Shown here piece after piece: positions 8,801 to 19,430 of a DNA stretch of 20,678 nt. How positions within the stretch are numbered: position 1 is the stretch's first letter; the number at the start of each line of letters is the position of its first letter. The notes beneath the pieces were generated by a model, which saw only the letters and a list, made by a program, of their open reading frames with translations, searched no databases and was not told where the DNA came from. Made by a program: the position numbers and the translations under genes. This DNA comes from a virus: the IMG/VR virus record IMGVR_UViG_3300034010_000547, positions 1-20,678 of that record; one strand, given 5' to 3'.

Positions 8801-10180
8801 CAAGTCCAGGAACTCGGGCTCGGACGCGAGCAGCCGATCCCGATTGTAAATACGGCTGAAGTAGCTGGCGGCCGTCTTTACGTCCAAGTCGCGCTCGTCG
8901 AGCAGGTACGTCCCGTCCGACCGCTTCATCTTCAGTGCGTCGTCGGTGAACGTGCCGAACAGCTTGCGGTACGCCTGCGCGGCCCGCGCGACGGCCGGGT
9001 TGTCCGACTGGTCGTTGTTGCGCATCGCTACGCCGACGGCCTTGTAGAAATCGTCCTCGCCCATTCGGACGCCGGCCTTGCGCATTTCCTTGTACGCCGC
9101 CTGCGCCTGTGTCGCGGCTTCGGCCTGCAGCGCTGTAACGCGGGTGCGAATGGCTGCCTCGACCGACACGCCCGTCGTCTCGCCTGCCGAGTGCATGGCG
9201 CGGTAGATGGTGTTCTCGTAAACTACGTTGCCGATCTGCCGAGCCGAAGCCGCGTACCGCTGCGTCGCGCGCAGGACCGGGTTGAACCGCCACGTCGTCT
9301 GCACCACTGCGCGGGCCGCCGCGCCCTGCACTTCCAGATCTGCGCGGCTACGTGGCGCGTCCACTGGATCGACAAAGAACGAACCTTCGGCGATGTCAGC
9401 ACCGCCAGCAGCAGGACGCCCGGCGGCCAGTTGTTCAGGAACGAACTCATTCGGAACCTTTCCTGATTGAATGTCTGCGATGTTTTCCAGTGCCTTCTGC
9501 GCAGCGATGCGCTCGTTCTTGCCGAGCACTGCCGCGACACCTCCGCCAAGCAGCGACCCGAGCACTGCCGCCGCACCGATGTTGATCGCGCTTTCCGCCG
9601 CCGTGCGCGTCTCCTGCGTTGCCTGCAGAAACCCTTCGGTCGCGGCCTGCGTGGCGCCCGCGCTGACGCCGCCGAGAAGCATGGACCTGCCAATCGACCA
9701 GCCGCCCTTTGCGCCGCGCACAGCCACGGTGCCGGGGATCAGCGTCGGGGCGTCGAATACGCCCGCCGCGATCTGCGCGAATGTGCCGGCCCATCCGGAA
9801 GCGGCCAGGGTTTCGCGGTCCCGCTGCTCCATCTCGATTTGCGCCTTCACGGCGTCCGCGCGCCGGGCGTTCAGTACCCCGATAAAACTATCCTCGTAGC
9901 CTTGAAGGTTGTTGCTGCGCACGTACTCAACCGGATCGAACTGCCCGTCGTCATCGTTGTCCACGCCGAGGTCCTTGCGCGACAGCATGGATGCCACGGT
10001 GTTGTCCTGCCGGAACGCCGCAGCAAAGACCGAGCGTGACGCCAGTTCCTGCGCCCGCGCCAACGACGCTTCGGTATCGTAGCCGGCGGTCGTTTCGGCG
10101 AGCGGCGGTTTCGCATAGTTCGCGAACAGCGCCGCCGGCCCTGCCTGCTGATCCAACTCGTCGAATGTCTTGAACGTCAT
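5864..10180 (-). CDS. T7 gp16-like internal virion (DNA ejection) protein
   Basis: This 1438-residue protein occupies the position of T7 gp16 (1318 residues), between the gp15-like gene and the fibre. Its N-terminal region has a hydrophobic, small-residue stretch (about 135-220, SMLLGGVSAGATQAATEGF and GAAAVLGSLLGGGVAAVLG). A very long charged helical region follows at about 485-815, rich in Arg, Glu and Ala. Further hydrophobic stretches occur near 1000-1035 (YIRLMGGILLANIGEFYRP) and 1264-1290 (LIGGLVVMTSLGALTSYLA), then GLDRSGFFPLLFDLSNRAE, a segment I associate with large podovirus internal proteins. By analogy it is packed in the capsid core and ejected to form part of a channel across the envelope. 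Unlike T7 gp16, no N-terminal lytic transglycosylase motif is visible. Start overlap ATGA with the upstream gene; AGGAGAGGG precedes the ATG. Confidence 0.8.
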   Translation of the reverse strand: MTFKTFDELDQQAGPAALFANYAKPPLAETTAGYDTEASLARAQELASRSVFAAAFRQDNTVASMLSRKDLGVDNDDDGQFDPVEYVRSNNLQGYEDSFIGVLNARRADAVKAQIEMEQRDRETLAASGWAGTFAQIAAGVFDAPTLIPGTVAVRGAKGGWSIGRSMLLGGVSAGATQAATEGFLQATQETRTAAESAINIGAAAVLGSLLGGGVAAVLGKNERIAAQKALENIADIQSGKVPNEFVPEQLAAGRPAAGGADIAEGSFFVDPVDAPRSRADLEVQGAAARAVVQTTWRFNPVLRATQRYAASARQIGNVVYENTIYRAMHSAGETTGVSVEAAIRTRVTALQAEAATQAQAAYKEMRKAGVRMGEDDFYKAVGVAMRNNDQSDNPAVARAAQAYRKLFGTFTDDALKMKRSDGTYLLDERDLDVKTAASYFSRIYNRDRLLASEPEFLDLIGRQFAERMGVAYSEDAAKVTASRALYRQRLDDLRQTGDARAARMAEIERQGELLDQQNPVHVDARSDLKVLRGELRAARTPAERAEAKAKIEKLRQQGGPELEAYLEKSAELKTRMRNLRERNPDAQLARGERLQERIEELEDQVSGSLAAFAKRTKNLLNDIRRDPEGRAAEAADSVREQIVKLREQATKTAERANKLGAQYVEAMDPQRAFQEAAARAAAQGQEGQAAIRAGTREADRVTKQIDQSKTVIAQYERQIAKLEDLADRMSRRETAVEAARDFAAELEATLKSVNEQVAARSIRRGEKSAELKARAAKLTPEQVAERATRQEAQYGKVLEDVEGRFDNRWGARKALGIERGERYDFEAAGRQAAKDVYDTITGKVQQREDIPSFITKVSTGPLKDRTFMVPDELLAGRGWLVDDVREVANRYARAMAGEIELTRRFGRADMADQLAVVAKEYSDMRVAVDQAKGVAGINAVLGRDKFGPKQNLAAAKVEANRLLAADEASAIEDIQVGRDKIRGTHNAGVNNSNFGAITRMLMHFNYIRLMGGILLANIGEFYRPAMVHGLEPYMRNMPDLMAQAFNAGSEGLKLSLREAKLSGLVAGRVTHAMQVANGDIADPFINGVTSVERVMQKATNIASRWNFVNLFTDAQQAIASTLSQHRILEAVLNAKPQDGSFVRGDPQALLRMLGIGKQTQADIARYVTAHGQTVDGIRVANTERWLAAANATGSATEIARAENAVRTYRAAVNTDVNSIISLRKSGDAPLFVNHPIGRVLTQFSGYAMGAHSNVMIRGLQESHSRLIGGLVVMTSLGALTSYLAAWRGGQERWKKYVEDTTKNPALLIGEGLDRSGFFPLLFDLSNRAERVTGAVGYQYRFNPVKSPIAALGGSGGLGVTSTRGSESSAAFGALLGPTAGLVDSGIAAGRVAADLAAGRDPPKRDVNQALAVVPYQSYYGMRELLQVLTGNSNYTRN

Positions 10181-12918
10181 CGGACAACCCTCTCCTGCGC
10201 CTTGGCCTGCGCCGCCCGTTCGACGTCAATCAACTTCTGCTGGTCTTTGATGGCGGCTCGATCCGCGCGGAACCGCTCGGTTTCCTCGCGCAGCCGCTGT
10301 TCGGCTTCGCGGCGCTGCTTGCGCTGCGCCTGCTCGGGCGTCAATACCTGGTCGGCAAGGTACGGCGGCAGCGTGGCCGGCAACCCGAACTGGTCGATAT
10401 ACTCGACCGGACCCTTGGCGACCAGTTCCGCGTTGGCCTTGTTCTTGTCGGTCACGTACTGCTCGATGTCCGGAAAGAACGCCCCATCAAGGACCAGAAG
10501 CTGTTGCGTTTCATCTTTCGGCGTGACGACAATCTGGTACGGCACCGATCGGTAGCTCGTGCGCTGCTGCGGATTGCCGCTGTCGCTGCGCGTGACCTCG
10601 ACGCCCTGCCGGCTGCGGAACACGGAACTCGTGCTTACCCCGTCGCGCTCGACCGGCATCAGCACAACCTGATCGGCTCCGACAACCACGCCGAGACGTT
10701 GCTGCACGATCTGCGTCGCCTGTTCACTGACCCACTTGTGTCCGTCTCGGGCGCCGGGCAGCGCCGGCAACCCGGCCTTGTCCGGCGGGTATCGCGTGAT
10801 GACGCCGTTCTGCACGCTGAACTGCTCTTTCATCTTGGCGTCGGCGTACTTCATCGCCACGGCTGGATCGCGGTGGACCTCGAACCCCTCGCGCGCAAAC
10901 TCGGCGTAGATCGAGCTGATCGCCGTGCGCTGCGGACCCTTCGGCATTTGCCCGCCGATCGTACCGAACCAGCTACCAGTCAGCCGACTTTCAACCTTCT
11001 CCTGCGTCAGGTAGTCCTTGCGGAACTTGTCCATCTGCTCGGACTTGACCGGGTTCAGCCGCTCGGGGTCGCGGTTCTCCTGGATCATGCGCTGCACGGC
11101 CTGCTCGGACGACAGCCCGAAATCCTGCGTCAAAAAGTCGTACCGCTGCGCCTGCTTCTGCAAGTCCGCACCGCCCTCGACGCCGGCCATCGCGTTCGGG
11201 TTCTGCCGCAGCATGTTGGATGCAGCGGTCAGCGCCGCCGTCATCTTCTGCGGGTCTTCGGAGATCATCGCGCCGCGCATTGCCGTGGCGAACTGCTGCG
11301 GCATGATGCCTGTGCGGTCGAACAGGACAGCCGCCGCCTCGGCGGGCGCTGCGCCCTGCTTGACCATGCTGTCGAACACCGCGCCGACGCCGCGCTTGTG
11401 CGAGCTGTCGTAAGGGTTTGCGACGCCGCGCCCGCCCTGCGCCAAGCCGATGCCGACGTTCAGGTCGGCGCTCGCTTCCTGCCGGTCCTTGATGATGCGC
11501 TCGGCACGCTGGATGTCGCTGATGTCGGTCAGCACGCCGGTTCGCCGCGCTGCTTCGTATGTCGCTTCGGGCGCCGGGCCTTCTTTCAACTGGACGTACA
11601 CGCTGTTGCGCTGCGCGGCCAGTTGCGCCTGGTTCGCCGCGTCCGTCGCTTTTTGCTGTTCGGCCAGCGCGCTTTTCGCCGTTTCCAGCACCGCCGCGCT
11701 CTGCTGCGGCGTCAGCGCCTGAGCATATGCGGGAGCCGGCGCCCCCGCGCCCCTGCCGGAAACCACCATATCCGCTTCGGAGTTTCGCCGGGCGGCGTTC
11801 ACCCCGTTGTTGTGAGACGCAAGATTGCGAACGGCCGCCGCGAGCCGCTGCGGGTCGCCTGACTGAGCCGCTACGGCCACCGAGTTCAGCGCGCCGCGCG
11901 ATCCACCTGCGCGCTCGCCGGGGCCGTCCCACGCCCCTGCCCCGTAGTTATAGGACAGCGACACCATGACGGCCTGCGCCGCCGGGGACAGCTTCTCCCA
12001 TGCGTCCTTGCCGATGGCCGCCACCGCAGCCGGCATGTACTCGTTCTTGACCCGACGGTCGAGGTCGCGTTCTGCGTCTTCGCGGCTGACGCTCATCCCT
12101 TGCTCGACGCGAACAACAGTCCCGTCGGCTTTGGTTATCGTGTCACTGCCGTAACCGATGCGCCAGGCGTTCACGTCCCAATACGGAGTTTCGCGAAAAC
12201 CCTCTTTGCGCCGCAGCAGGTCTTTCATGCCGCCGAGGCCCGGCTGCATGTTGGCGGAAATGTAACCTTCCGGGTTCTGTTGCGCCTCGGCTTGCGCCGC
12301 CGTGAACGCCAGCGAATTGCGCAGCTCCTGCTTGCGGGCCTGCTTCTCGAGCGGCGTCAGCGTGGACTTGTCGATCAGATCTTCCTGATCTTTGACGAAC
12401 TGTTCATAACTCGCTGGCTGCTGCTGCACCGCGACGCCGGCCTTGCGCTGTTCCTCGGTCAGGGTCAGCCGCGTGTTCGCATCCTGTTGCTGGTACTGAT
12501 CCTGGAACGCTTGCGCGGTTCGGCGGTTCTGGAACGACTGCGCTTTGGCGGCGTACTCGGCCCGCTTGTCGGCGGGCAGGCTTTCCAGCCACTGCCCGAA
12601 GCGCCCGGCGGTCGCGTCGCGCGCCGTCATCCAATGCCCGTCTGCCGCGCCCTGCATCGTGCGCTGGCGCTCTTGGTAGTCGAGATTGTCCTGCTCCTGA
12701 AGCTGCAGGAATTGCTTCTCGTAGTCGAAGTCTTTCACGCGGTCGGCGTTCGCCTTGATTTTGGCCGCAAGCTGAAGCCCCGCGTCTGCCAGTCCCTGCG
12801 TGGCACGACCGATCTGGCCGCCGAAATCGTCGGCGTTGGCGCGGTCAACCTGCATGCGCGCGTTTGGCAGGTCTTCGCGGTTGCCCGCCGTCATCAAGTC
12901 AAGCGGAAGCCGTGCCAT
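10177..12918 (-). CDS. T7 gp15-like internal virion protein with lysozyme-like domain
   Basis: The 913-residue product begins MARLPLDLMTAGNREDLPNA and has a Gln- and Ala-rich helical N-terminus (about 40-215). A lysozyme-like domain follows at about 228-385: KEGFRETPYWDVNAWRIGYGSDT with candidate catalytic Glu239 and Asp248, then MSVSREDAERDLDRRV, AAQAVMVSLSYNYGAGAW, and a C-terminal NGVNAARRNSEADM that matches the closing motif of GH24-type lysozymes. The remainder is long and helical, ending in a basic Arg/Gln-rich tail. By position it is the gp15 equivalent (747 residues in T7) with an added muralytic domain, which would open peptidoglycan locally during DNA entry. The residue aligned with T4 lysozyme Thr26 appears to be Arg253. 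Three bases separate it from the upstream gene. Confidence 0.82.
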   Translation of the reverse strand: MARLPLDLMTAGNREDLPNARMQVDRANADDFGGQIGRATQGLADAGLQLAAKIKANADRVKDFDYEKQFLQLQEQDNLDYQERQRTMQGAADGHWMTARDATAGRFGQWLESLPADKRAEYAAKAQSFQNRRTAQAFQDQYQQQDANTRLTLTEEQRKAGVAVQQQPASYEQFVKDQEDLIDKSTLTPLEKQARKQELRNSLAFTAAQAEAQQNPEGYISANMQPGLGGMKDLLRRKEGFRETPYWDVNAWRIGYGSDTITKADGTVVRVEQGMSVSREDAERDLDRRVKNEYMPAAVAAIGKDAWEKLSPAAQAVMVSLSYNYGAGAWDGPGERAGGSRGALNSVAVAAQSGDPQRLAAAVRNLASHNNGVNAARRNSEADMVVSGRGAGAPAPAYAQALTPQQSAAVLETAKSALAEQQKATDAANQAQLAAQRNSVYVQLKEGPAPEATYEAARRTGVLTDISDIQRAERIIKDRQEASADLNVGIGLAQGGRGVANPYDSSHKRGVGAVFDSMVKQGAAPAEAAAVLFDRTGIMPQQFATAMRGAMISEDPQKMTAALTAASNMLRQNPNAMAGVEGGADLQKQAQRYDFLTQDFGLSSEQAVQRMIQENRDPERLNPVKSEQMDKFRKDYLTQEKVESRLTGSWFGTIGGQMPKGPQRTAISSIYAEFAREGFEVHRDPAVAMKYADAKMKEQFSVQNGVITRYPPDKAGLPALPGARDGHKWVSEQATQIVQQRLGVVVGADQVVLMPVERDGVSTSSVFRSRQGVEVTRSDSGNPQQRTSYRSVPYQIVVTPKDETQQLLVLDGAFFPDIEQYVTDKNKANAELVAKGPVEYIDQFGLPATLPPYLADQVLTPEQAQRKQRREAEQRLREETERFRADRAAIKDQQKLIDVERAAQAKAQERVVR

Positions 12919-16791: not shown

Positions 16792-16819
16792 TGCGCCGGG
16801 GCGTGACCGCCCCGGCGCA
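16792..16819 (-). terminator. 12-bp hairpin before the tail genes, T7 T-phi position
   Basis: TGCGCCGGGGCG (16792-16803) pairs perfectly with CGCCCCGGCGCA (16808-16819) around a 4-base loop. Reading the minus strand, the stem is followed by TTTGCTTG, a broken T-tract, so termination is probably partial. It lies between the decoration and gp11-like genes, the place T7 has its leaky late terminator T-phi. The gp11 Shine-Dalgarno follows within about 10 bases. Confidence 0.75.
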
Positions 16820-16828
16820 ACGCGAGAC

Positions 16829-16846
16829 ATTCGGTCGGAACCGAAT
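16829..16846 (-). other. TCCG-loop hairpin directly after the decoration stop codon
   Basis: On the minus strand, ATTCGGT-TCCG-ACCGAAT forms a 7-bp stem beginning at the base after the TAA at 16849-16847. UCCG belongs to the UNCG family of stable tetraloops. It has no T-tract; an RNA 3'-end stabilising or processing role is plausible, in tandem with the larger hairpin 9 bases downstream. Confidence 0.6.
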
Positions 16847-17311
16847 TTACGGGCCGACGAAGTAAAGGTCAACGACCAGTCGCGCGCCGGCGGTGGTCGG
16901 AAGCGAAGCGGTCGCGGTGGTCATGATAATCTCTTCCTCGGCGGCGAGCGGCGGGTCCGCAAACCGGAGCGCCGTGCCGAAGTTGGTCGGCGTGTCTACC
17001 GCAGTGAACACCGCCGCAGCGCGATACTTGCCGGTCGTGCCGGCGATACCGATCGCGACGGTGGACGTACCGAGCGACACCGACGACACAAGCTCGCCGC
17101 CAGCAAAGCGGTAGCCGGCCGGGACACGGGCCAGCACCACCGGGTCGGCCGACGTGATTACGGTGCCGGCCGAGGTCGAGTTCAGGTTCGGTGCGTCGAG
17201 CGGGATCGTGGCCCGGAAGACGCGCACGCGCCCGCCAAGGGCCTCGTTGCCCACGAGGTTGCGCGGGACGTCGGCGACGCCACGCATTTCGTTCGAGTAG
17301 AAAGTCGGCAT
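16847..17311 (-). CDS. head decoration / cement protein
   Basis: The 154-residue product follows the major capsid gene by 54 bases and has AGGAG nine bases before ATG 17311. It is almost entirely beta-strand in character: RVRVFRATIPLD, TVITSADPVVLARVPAGYRF, SSVSLGTSTVAIGIAGTTGK, RAAAVFTAV, IIMTTATASLPT and ARLVVDLYFVGP. The motif of a rational-looking strand pair, G-Y-R-F-A-G-G then S-LGTSTVAIGIAGTTGKY, recurs in capsid-adjacent proteins of many podoviruses, where a jelly-roll-like cement protein strengthens the shell. BPP-1 has its cement gene (bbp16) beside its capsid gene, a comparable arrangement. Fibre-like head protein is the alternative. The decoration role is inference from position and beta content. 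Confidence 0.7.
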   Translation of the reverse strand: MPTFYSNEMRGVADVPRNLVGNEALGGRVRVFRATIPLDAPNLNSTSAGTVITSADPVVLARVPAGYRFAGGELVSSVSLGTSTVAIGIAGTTGKYRAAAVFTAVDTPTNFGTALRFADPPLAAEEEIIMTTATASLPTTAGARLVVDLYFVGP

Positions 17312-17344
17312 GGAGATTACTCCTGATCTGGATTGGATGAGACG

Positions 17345-17364
17345 GAAGGGGCCGGAGCCCCTTC
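17345..17364 (-). other. C(TCCG)G tetraloop hairpin directly after the capsid stop
   Basis: Reading the minus strand, GAAGGGGC-TCCG-GCCCCTTC is an 8-bp stem with the ideal C-G closing pair of UNCG tetraloops, one base after the capsid TGA (17368-17366). There is no T-tract, so it is more likely a stabilising or ribosome-spacing element than a terminator. It lies between two genes that should need very different or very high doses. Confidence 0.65.
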
Positions 17365-17365
17365 A

Positions 17366-18307
17366 TCACGCGCTGTTGCAGACGATACGCACGACCTTCT
17401 TTTCCTGCGTGCGGGTGGCGCCGACGTTCATCTCGCCCCAAATCTGCGTGTTGTAGTTCTTGTCCGGCCGGGTATCGACACGGACGTCCACGCCCTGCCA
17501 CTGCGCGTAATGCACGCCGCTCGCCACCCAACACGGAATGTTGCGGGTCAGGGACGCGATGCCGCCCGGAATGATGGTCGGGACCGACAGCGGGTAGACC
17601 GGCGTGGTGCCGTCATCTTCCGCCGCCTGCCACTCAACGTGGACGAAGTTGAAGCCCATGAACGACGTGACGCGGCCGTCCACAAGGGTCGGGCGGTCGT
17701 TGTAGTCCATGTTCGTCACCTGCAGTTCGCCAAGCAGGTTGTCGTGCTCGACCGACGTGATCGCGATGTACGCCTGCTCGCGCGCCAGGTCGAGACCGGA
17801 CGCCATGAGGATGCGCTTCGCGGCGCGGAGCTTCGGAACGTTCAGCCCCGAGTTCGCGCCGCCGACGTTGACGCCGACTTCCTGCGCCGCGAGGAACGGC
17901 GTGCTGATCGTGCCGTTCTCACCCGTGAACGCCGCGGAGAAGAACGAAGTGCCGATTTCATCGTCCACGCCGCGCCCAAGGGAGTTGGCGATGGCCTCGG
18001 TGCAGGGCGAGCGCAGGTCGATCAGCATGCGCTGAATGTCAAGCTGCTCGATCAAGGTCGAGGTGGTGACGCTGTTCGGGAACACCCACCGACGGTTGCC
18101 GGGCACGTTGAAGTGCGGCGTATCCGTGTGGCGGGCGCGGTTTCGCGTGCGGCCGATGGTGCCGAACTGCTCGACCGGCGAAGCGGCCTTGCCCTGGTAC
18201 GAGCCCTGCGAAACATAGGCAGGAAGGCGCATACCGGACTGCTGAAGAAGGTGCTCGACGTTGCGCGAGAACGTCAGAACGTGGTGCTGCTGCACAGTGA
18301 AAGACAT
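17366..18307 (-). CDS. major capsid protein (Phage_capsid_2 / BPP-1 type)
   Basis: The 313-residue product has the features of the Phage_capsid_2 family, the HK97-fold capsids that include Bordetella phage BPP-1 Bbp17. These are an N-arm with HHVLTFSRNVEHLLQQSGMR, then YQGKAASPVEQFGTIG, a Pro/Trp turn RRWVFPNSVTTSTLIEQLD, SPCTEAIANSLGRGVDDEIG (helix and spine), a long middle LRAAKRILMASGLDLAREQA, and VDVRVDTRPDKNYNTQIWGE near the end, the usual closing strand. Many copies form the icosahedral shell. It follows scaffold, as in T7, but is separated from it by 253 bases carrying its own promoter. GGAG lies seven bases before ATG 18307. Confidence 0.87.
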   Translation of the reverse strand: MSFTVQQHHVLTFSRNVEHLLQQSGMRLPAYVSQGSYQGKAASPVEQFGTIGRTRNRARHTDTPHFNVPGNRRWVFPNSVTTSTLIEQLDIQRMLIDLRSPCTEAIANSLGRGVDDEIGTSFFSAAFTGENGTISTPFLAAQEVGVNVGGANSGLNVPKLRAAKRILMASGLDLAREQAYIAITSVEHDNLLGELQVTNMDYNDRPTLVDGRVTSFMGFNFVHVEWQAAEDDGTTPVYPLSVPTIIPGGIASLTRNIPCWVASGVHYAQWQGVDVRVDTRPDKNYNTQIWGEMNVGATRTQEKKVVRIVCNSA

Positions 18308-18432
18308 GGCGGATCTCCGCGAGTGTGGGTTCCTGTTTCGCGGTTATCCGGCAAGCCGGGCCGACATGATGTCGGGGTCGGTCGGGTGTGGGGCTTGTGC
18401 CTGTGCGGCCCGTCAACCCCGACGCTGCGTGA
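18308..18432 (-). promoter_or_regulatory. capsid mRNA leader with inverted repeats
   Basis: If the promoter at 18433-18461 is used, the leader is about 120 bases, long for a phage late gene. It contains two exact inverted repeats, CCGACAT-G-ATGTCGG (18361-18375) and CCGGC-AA-GCCGG (18348-18359), nearly adjacent, and the capsid ribosome binding site GGAG. The repeats could be a repressor operator or leader RNA stems that protect the message. No ORF of note is seen in it. Confidence 0.5.
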
Positions 18433-18461
18433 TTTGTAACCTGACGTTTCGACACTGTCAA
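18433..18461 (-). promoter_or_regulatory. sigma70-type promoter for the capsid gene
   Basis: Reading the minus strand there is a perfect -35 TTGACA (18461-18456), a 17-base spacer, and -10 TACAAA (18438-18433; 4 of 6 matches to TATAAT). It lies directly downstream of a strong terminator and in front of the capsid gene. Alphaproteobacterial vegetative promoters often keep the -35 well and tolerate a poorer -10, which fits. This predicts host RNA polymerase transcribes the capsid unit. Confidence 0.7.
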
Positions 18462-18472
18462 CGCAACGAAAA

Positions 18473-18498
18473 AGCGCCGCCCGGTGAGGGGCGGCGCT
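18473..18498 (-). terminator. strong intrinsic terminator between scaffold and capsid
   Basis: AGCGCCGCCC (18473-18482) pairs exactly with GGGCGGCGCT (18489-18498) around a 6-base loop. On the minus strand the stem is followed by TTTTCGTT, giving a run of T with the arm end (CTTTTT). It ends transcripts coming through the scaffold gene, 62 bases after that gene's stop. Confidence 0.85.
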
Positions 18499-18516
18499 GA
18501 GGAACAGGGAGCAAAA

Positions 18517-18536
18517 CCGACGAGCTTGCTGGTCGG
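18517..18536 (-). terminator. weaker upstream hairpin with T-tract
   Basis: On the minus strand CCGACCAGC and GCTCGTCGG form a stem with one mismatch and a tiny or opened loop, followed by TTTTGC. It would act in tandem with the strong terminator 18 bases downstream. Less certain because of the mismatch and tight loop. Confidence 0.45.
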
Positions 18537-18560
18537 AGCAATCGCGCCCCCTCCCGTATC

Positions 18561-19430
18561 TCACATCTTCGCGTTGACCGCAAGTTTCGCGAGCGCATCC
18601 ATCTCGGCCATCGCAACGGCCCGAACCTTCGGGTCGGGGCTGTTGTACCGCTCCATGAATAGCCGGTCGCCGTAGAGCGCATCCATCTTCGCCTTGGCGG
18701 TCGCGGGTGTGTGCTGCGCAAAGCCCGGTGTCTGCGTGCGGTTCTCTGCGCCGGGCGGCTGCGCCTCGACGTAGTTCCGCCCGAAGAACTCGAAATACTT
18801 GGCCGCCTTGGCAGGACCCCAAACCGCCTCGGCGGCCTTGATGTCCTCCTCGGGCATGCCTGCGGCTTTCGCTGCGGCCTTTCCGACCTCGACCTTCTGC
18901 TCGAACTGCGGGCCCCACTCGCGCTCAAGCCCTTCGATCTCGGTTGCGTGATCCTGCTGGACCTTCCGCACGCTGTCGAGTTCGGCGGCACGATACAGTT
19001 CAGCGACCATTTGCGCCTGCTTCGGCAGCAGGCCGGCTTTGTGGAACCAGCCCTTCGCCGTGCCGAGGAACTTTTCATCCGCGCCGTCGATCTTGATCTC
19101 GTAGCCGTTGGCGTCCTTCGGCCGGCCGAGGCGGTCGAAGATTGCATCCAGCGCCGCCGTATCACTTTCATCCTTCGGAAGCTGGACCGTGCGGCCCGCC
19201 TTGTCGGCGCCGAACAGCTTTTCAAGGCTGTTGTAACTCTGCAGCGCCATGGTGGCGACATCTTCGGCGGGCAGGTCTGGCTTGTAGCCTTTGGCGTCCG
19301 CCCACTCTGCCAGATCGCCGGGCAGCTTGCTGCGCCATGAAGCGCCAGCCGGCGGCGCCGGCGTGGGCTCCGGGGCGGGCGTTGGGGCCGCTTGGTCCCC
19401 CACCGGGGCAGTCTGTACGTTCTCAGTCAT
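18561..19430 (-). CDS. capsid scaffolding protein
   Basis: The 289-residue product has a Pro/Ala-rich disordered N-terminus (GDQAAPTPAPEPTPAPPAGA), then WRSKLPGDLAEWADAKGYKP, and a long helical, charged middle (AELYRAAELDSVRKVQQDHA, IEGLEREWGPQFEQKVEVGK, FFGRNYVEAQ). It ends in a helical C-terminus with AMAEMDALAKLAVNAKM. This is the usual build of podovirus scaffolds (T7 gp9: 307 residues), placed immediately before the capsid gene. It would guide shell assembly and leave before DNA packaging. The start ATG 19430 overlaps the Bbp19-like stop as ATGA. Two terminator-like hairpins follow its stop, so scaffold and capsid are separately controlled. Confidence 0.82.
   Translation of the reverse strand: MTENVQTAPVGDQAAPTPAPEPTPAPPAGASWRSKLPGDLAEWADAKGYKPDLPAEDVATMALQSYNSLEKLFGADKAGRTVQLPKDESDTAALDAIFDRLGRPKDANGYEIKIDGADEKFLGTAKGWFHKAGLLPKQAQMVAELYRAAELDSVRKVQQDHATEIEGLEREWGPQFEQKVEVGKAAAKAAGMPEEDIKAAEAVWGPAKAAKYFEFFGRNYVEAQPPGAENRTQTPGFAQHTPATAKAKMDALYGDRLFMERYNSPDPKVRAVAMAEMDALAKLAVNAKM

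Follow-up and report, generated by a model that had tools for sequence, protein, structure and literature searches.

It has long been asked how tailed phages keep capsid and scaffold in proportion, and most of the answers come from a small set of model phages. In T7, promoter phi10 lies between the scaffold and capsid genes (genes 9 and 10), and terminator Tphi follows the capsid gene and precedes the tail genes (T7 annotation), as a preliminary description of the present locus had correctly stated; transcription there is by the phage-encoded RNA polymerase, and no terminator is annotated between genes 9 and 10. Among Rfam families, translational riboswitches and the leader RNAs of phages are conserved elements near a start codon whose alternative folds free or hide the ribosome-binding site. 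In RNA phages, coat protein acts on translational operators, which are short structured RNAs at the start of a virion gene. HTVC010P-type pelagiphages, such as Skadi, rely on host RNA polymerase (PMC10504331), and the authors of the Skadi study found no terminators or riboswitches in that phage. RNAs of the alphaproteobacterial αR8 family (MmgR and SisA-D; RF00519) consist of a hairpin, an anti-Shine-Dalgarno 10-mer, and a terminator, and Caulobacter SisA represses mRNAs, including those of TonB-dependent receptors, through the 10-mer (PMC12559287).

Gene annotation of the window, which is the whole 20,678-base stretch of DNA analyzed (IMG/VR record IMGVR_UViG_3300034010_000547), revealed a T7-like virion module on the minus strand (Table 1). 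By its sequence, the window represents part of the genome of an HTVC010P-type podovirus, with a capsid protein of the PF19821/phrog_3437 family and T7-like virion gene order, both of which are shared with Skadi and other pelagiphages of this type. The nearest named phages by capsid were HTVC010P-type pelagiphages (≤33%), with one uncultivated podovirus at 41%; many of the relatives compared came from IMG/VR and a few from bacterial assemblies. The single-subunit RNA polymerase that defines T7-like phages (Autographiviridae) was detected in none of five longer relatives (PF00940 search; the T7 positive control was found), the window itself being a fragment, and host-type signals therefore fit, in line with the use of host polymerase by HTVC010P-type phages. 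The protein encoded directly before the capsid gene is, by that position, a probable scaffold. The label "decoration" in the preliminary description received moderate support, as the predicted model of that protein (pLDDT of 63, a modest confidence) had as its top PDB match chain 7eel_H (Foldseek E value, 1.6e-4), from the capsid of cyanophage Pam1, and the next matches were phage capsid or cement chains. The sequence from locus L005 was left out of the comparison of this gene among relatives. Elsewhere in the window, residues 145 to 453 of a 913-aa protein of the internal virion region (10177-12918, minus strand) matched endolysin family phrog_7, and a 1,438-aa protein matched internal virion protein families.

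TABLE 1 Positions of annotated and predicted features in the window
Feature	Position	Strand	Description
Virion module genes (fibre, internal virion proteins, tail proteins, capsid, gene before capsid)		-	Profile matches
Probable scaffold, upstream gene	18561..19430	-	289 aa; directly before capsid; phrog_3742 (unknown function)
Diverged αR8-type (RF00519, suhB/mmgR) sRNA element, probable	18459..18543	-	26.3 bits
5' hairpin of sRNA element	18517..18536	-	Rfam alignment and fold; only UUUU after it
Putative anti-Shine-Dalgarno seed TTTGCTCCCT	18506..18515	-	9/10 to the αR8 10-mer TTTCCTCCCT
Predicted intrinsic terminator, scaffold side	18473..18498	-	10-bp stem, then TTTTTCG; position conserved, stems differ
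Predicted -35 TTGACA	18456..18461	-	Invariant in nine genomes
Predicted -10 TACAAA	18433..18438	-	17-nt spacer from -35; TAnA kept in nine genomes
Capsid 5' leader RNA	18308..18426	-	~119 nt; predicted start; long invariant blocks
Leader helix P0	18371..18423	-	GTCGGGGT (18423-18416) with ACCCCGAC (18378-18371)
Motif copy 1	18392..18410	-	GGC-C-GCACAGGC-ACAA-GCC
Motif copy 2	18341..18363	-	CGG-C-CCGGCTTGCCGG-ATAA-CCG
Competing helix predicted to hide the ribosome-binding site	18311..18349	-	Called from fold, consensus fold, and duplex computation
Probable Shine-Dalgarno GGAG	18315..18318	-	7 nt before ATG
Major capsid protein	17366..18307	-	313 aa; PF19821 (E value, 1.2e-65), phrog_3437
Probable decoration/cement protein	16847..17311	-	154 aa, all-beta; kept after capsid in relatives
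Predicted downstream intrinsic terminator	16792..16819	-	12-bp stem, weak T tract; position conserved in relatives

The promoter and hairpin features of the preliminary description were all present at their positions on the minus strand. Terminator-like sites in the region were not exceptional as a count (8, compared to 4.3 ± 2.0 in shuffled sequences), but the two strong hairpins folded far more stably than shuffled sequences did (z = -4.1 for 18545-18467 and z = -4.6 for 16822-16780); the arrangement was held to be real because of its conservation across nine distinct genomes (the window and eight relatives, with capsids 63 to 100% identical). Comparison of the intergenic region in related phages, a check proposed in the preliminary description, revealed an invariant TTGACA (9/9), a variable spacer, and, at a distance of about 17 nt, a -10 hexamer that kept TAnA. 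In 9/9 genomes, the promoter was preceded by a GC hairpin whose tail was T rich and whose stem sequence differed between genomes; promoter and stem were both kept, not lost, in close relatives. Beyond the decoration gene, the relatives examined had another such hairpin, likewise with a T-rich tail and with differing stem sequences. Two tandem hairpins had been described there; the one at 16819-16792 stands as a terminator conserved in position, but the one at 16846-16829, which is present, is probably no terminator, because it is without a T tract and is not conserved.

The hexamer pair at 18461-18433 was omitted from a consensus promoter scan only because the scan demanded T at the last -10 base. 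Hexamers with 16- to 18-nt spacing, conserved over variable flanks, are consistent with a predicted sigma-70 promoter. Promoter-like sites scoring ≥9.5 were found before the capsid gene in 32% of 68 diverse members of the capsid family, compared to 3.5% in shuffled sequences and 1.5% on the reverse strand. A perfect TTGACA-17-TATAAT was observed between the pre-capsid gene and the capsid gene of Alteromonas phage ZP6 (L345:560-588), with no terminator before it. The conserved order of terminator, promoter, and terminator amid otherwise variable sequence agrees with the host-type promoter that had been proposed for the capsid-decoration unit, and the nine-genome conservation, together with the conserved position of the downstream terminator, supports its insulation. 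A transcription unit that is real and conserved in close relatives is therefore well supported by these comparisons; the scaffold-to-capsid ratio may be set by separate promoters, as the preliminary description proposed. The unit resembles T7 genes 9 and 10 in its promoter between scaffold and capsid and its terminator after capsid and before the tail genes, and it differs in its host-type signals, the terminator ahead of the promoter, the inclusion of the decoration gene, and a leader that resembles a switch. Many distant relatives had a small ORF (start, e.g., MDIAQIRLECLKLA) between scaffold and capsid, which the window's clade lacks; in L016, L023, L027, L187, and similar loci it lay about 280 to 310 nt upstream of the capsid start.

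The two hairpins after the scaffold gene had been read as a weak and a strong terminator. Both hairpins are real, but the pair corresponds to the 5' hairpin and the terminator of a diverged αR8-type sRNA element, with hairpin, anti-Shine-Dalgarno 10-mer (UUUCCUCCCU, 9/10 bases in the window), and intrinsic terminator in the same order as in the αR8 family. The score of the window against RF00519 (26.3 bits; E value, 0.0014 in 301 bases and 2.2e-5 in the record) was below the 41-bit gathering cutoff, and six loci representing five distinct relatives (L004, L005, L006, L007, L008, and L012) were above it, with scores of 44.5 to 59.9 bits at the same syntenic place. By position, the window element is probably a diverged αR8 copy, formally not a member of RF00519, and it also differs from the family in being placed between phage scaffold and capsid genes. 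A CTCC core was found between hairpin and terminator in 9/9 genomes, with the 5' hairpin missing from L003. As to a possible action of the αR8 seed on capsid, inspection by eye showed only CUCCC/GGGAG to be shared.

The 17-base αR8 core (TTGGGCGTTTCCTCCCT) occurred in at least 120 stretches among IMG/VR viral contigs, and nearly all of the 80 loci inspected (L047 to L126) had the αR8 order, in which a hairpin and the seed are followed by a GC hairpin and then a T tract. The αR8 elements of other phages frequently came after a gene matching transcription antiterminator family phrog_6386 (12/39 upstream genes) and preceded HNH or terminase genes (for example, L341:4001-4039 and L342:4001-4030 from Bradyrhizobium phages, and members of A5), a place that resembles that of the late promoter of lambda, from which a short terminated RNA is made. 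Nothing relevant to phage-borne αR8 RNA was found in the literature searched, which excluded most subscription papers.

It is possible, though on the unlikely side, that the main product of this gap is a working αR8-type sRNA derived from the 3' end of the scaffold transcript, which would pair with host mRNAs (such as that of a TonB receptor) or phage mRNAs, termination being a by-product. The matches above the RF00519 cutoff in five distinct relatives, the seed core in 9/9 genomes, the occurrence of the αR8 core in at least 120 viral stretches, and the repression of TonB-dependent receptors by the SisA 10-mer (PMC12559287) point in this direction, but the window copy scores below the cutoff, L003 is without the 5' hairpin, and the putative element has no demonstrated promoter of its own. 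With the element read instead chiefly as an insulator, the terminator that it contributes to the end of the scaffold transcript would limit read-through into the capsid gene.

The capsid leader had a computed fold with a z score of -2.4, and helix P0 was part of the consensus fold of nine leaders, with pairs that were mostly unvarying. The leader contains a motif in which the strands of a three-pair helix (P1 and P1') enclose, in order, one C, the hairpin P2, and either ACAA or ATAA. Two copies were found in the window leader and one in most diverged relatives, about 45 to 115 nt before the capsid start; the motif was rare elsewhere in long loci and was absent from HTVC010P itself. A blind scan of the whole of IMG/VR (2.9 million viral contigs) with a pattern for one motif subclass returned 80 loci, 3 of which were cut by contig ends. 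Among the 77 evaluable loci, 73 were positioned just upstream of a gene of the PF19821/phrog_3437 capsid family, and 4 were inside other genes. A phage-like contig of the isolate Ensifer adhaerens ST2 (L249/L294) also encodes a capsid of this family and carries a motif of the CCTC class. In 29 distinct cores, all seven pairs showed two-sided changes (7/7) and 98% of cells were paired, a count that is insufficient alone because the cores had been required to have P1 and two or more P2 pairs, a choice that favors pairing. The covariation alignment used loop-trimmed cores; MAFFT on full cores misplaced the variable P2 loops. The leader matched none of 4,227 Rfam families, and a search of the literature, with most subscription papers outside its reach, yielded nothing relevant to a capsid leader RNA. 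Relative to Rfam, the motif is thus a candidate new class of capsid leader RNA. A match of L011 to RF02356 was below the family cutoff and is not claimed. At 18423-18362 of the window (minus strand), CCCCGAC could pair either with the 5' GTCGGGG or with a local GTCGG, which makes a second alternative fold possible.

The competing helix of the window, in which GGAT (18349-18346) and CCGCGA (18343-18338) pair with TCGCGG (18322-18317) and ATCC (18314-18311), encloses the GGAG and uses the P2 3' arm, loop, and P1' of motif copy 2, so the two folds are mutually exclusive. The nine-leader consensus fold retained this helix, with a few two-sided changes. In the CCTC subclass, P2 was complementary to the ribosome-binding region, often over 10 to 12 bp; in the window's clade and in the class termed "other," no such pairing of P2 was observed, and it is the strand after ACAA that pairs with the ribosome-binding site. 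Own pairing was favored over swapped pairing in 52 leaders (z = -11.5), within subclasses (z = -8.7 and, for the "other" class, z = -5.4), and in 38 leaders from the blind scan (z = -13), and the effect was still significant after stricter thinning for relatedness. In the window's own clade, which has few distinct members, the swap test was marginal (n = 6; P of about 0.04 to 0.05). All strong duplexes (36/36) involved the ribosome-binding site and overlapped a motif helix, the overlap being partly built in because the pairing computation was given only the region from P2 to P1'+8. Neither this bias nor the one in selecting cores for covariation affects the swap tests or the collection scan.

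The state with the site hidden (OFF) was the computed minimum-energy state, by 3 to 24 kcal/mol, so that reaching the other state would require an activator or kinetic trapping. A receptor-like fold that excludes a site-hiding fold, as in riboswitches, was thus found by computation. Because folding of the leader competes with pairing of the ribosome-binding site, translation is probably a further level at which the dose of capsid is set. The leader resembles the Rfam translational riboswitches and phage leader RNAs described above, from which it differs in lacking a family match and in being attached to the major capsid gene of tailed phages.

On balance, capsid and decoration are likely to be transcribed as a unit of their own, in which dose is controlled at two levels. 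The host sigma-70 promoter would begin a new transcript, and the terminator after the decoration gene would end it. In that transcript, the folded motif would leave the ribosome-binding site free (ON), and the unfolded motif would allow P2, or P1' and the bases following it, to pair with the site (OFF). The leader would then act as a translational switch whose default state is OFF and which is turned ON by stabilization of the motif, most simply through an assembly protein; folding during transcription would be the alternative to a protein factor. The motif occurs almost exclusively with one capsid family, in phages of different hosts, and for this reason the factor favoring one state would most likely be a virion-assembly protein, scaffold or capsid.

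The insulated promoter unit may, less probably, be all there is, with a constitutive leader structure that serves mRNA stability or fixed low initiation and does not switch. The conserved promoter and terminators suffice for the finding of the preliminary description, and the sequestered state was computed to be far more stable in many leaders, but a constitutive hairpin leaves unexplained both the near-invariant C/ACAA internal loop and why covariation keeps these helices even though they are not the most stable fold. Autogenous repression, in which capsid protein would bind the motif or the competing fold and shut off its own translation, is doubtful to a similar degree. The motif tracks one capsid family, and the coat operators of RNA phages, likewise short structured RNAs suited to control by a virion protein, are a precedent. 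The present leader differs from those operators in its fold and in belonging to double-stranded DNA phages, and its pairing geometry predicts activation on motif stabilization, so that a stabilized motif would free the ribosome-binding site, not hide it. Distinctly improbable is an ordinary operon with leaky terminators and a weak promoter, in which scaffold and capsid are cotranscribed; the T tract after 16819-16792 is weak and the -10 TACAAA has only 4/6 consensus bases, but the -35 is invariant beside a variable spacer and the terminators are conserved. DNA inverted repeats can serve as protein sites, but an operator, packaging, or recombination site at the DNA level is highly improbable given complementarity that always includes the ribosome-binding site, G-U pairs (48/711), and a fixed position relative to the start codon.

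The αR8-type element and the conserved leader RNA element are both additions to the preliminary description, and the wider interest of the locus lies in these parts inside the unit, a host-type sRNA element as insulator and a candidate class of capsid leader. Host-type αR8 regulatory RNAs within phage operons bear on how phages borrow host regulation. An insulated host-promoter unit combined with a widespread, covarying two-fold leader offers a concrete and cheaply testable case of capsid control at the RNA level. More tentatively, the leader may belong to a hitherto undescribed kind of cis-acting RNA switch that, across a large group of tailed phages, controls how the major capsid protein is translated; the motif would be a receptor for an assembly protein (e.g., scaffold), and the window's clade would have added a captured host-type αR8 sRNA as an insulating terminator. 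If so, capsid would be made only once scaffold is present.
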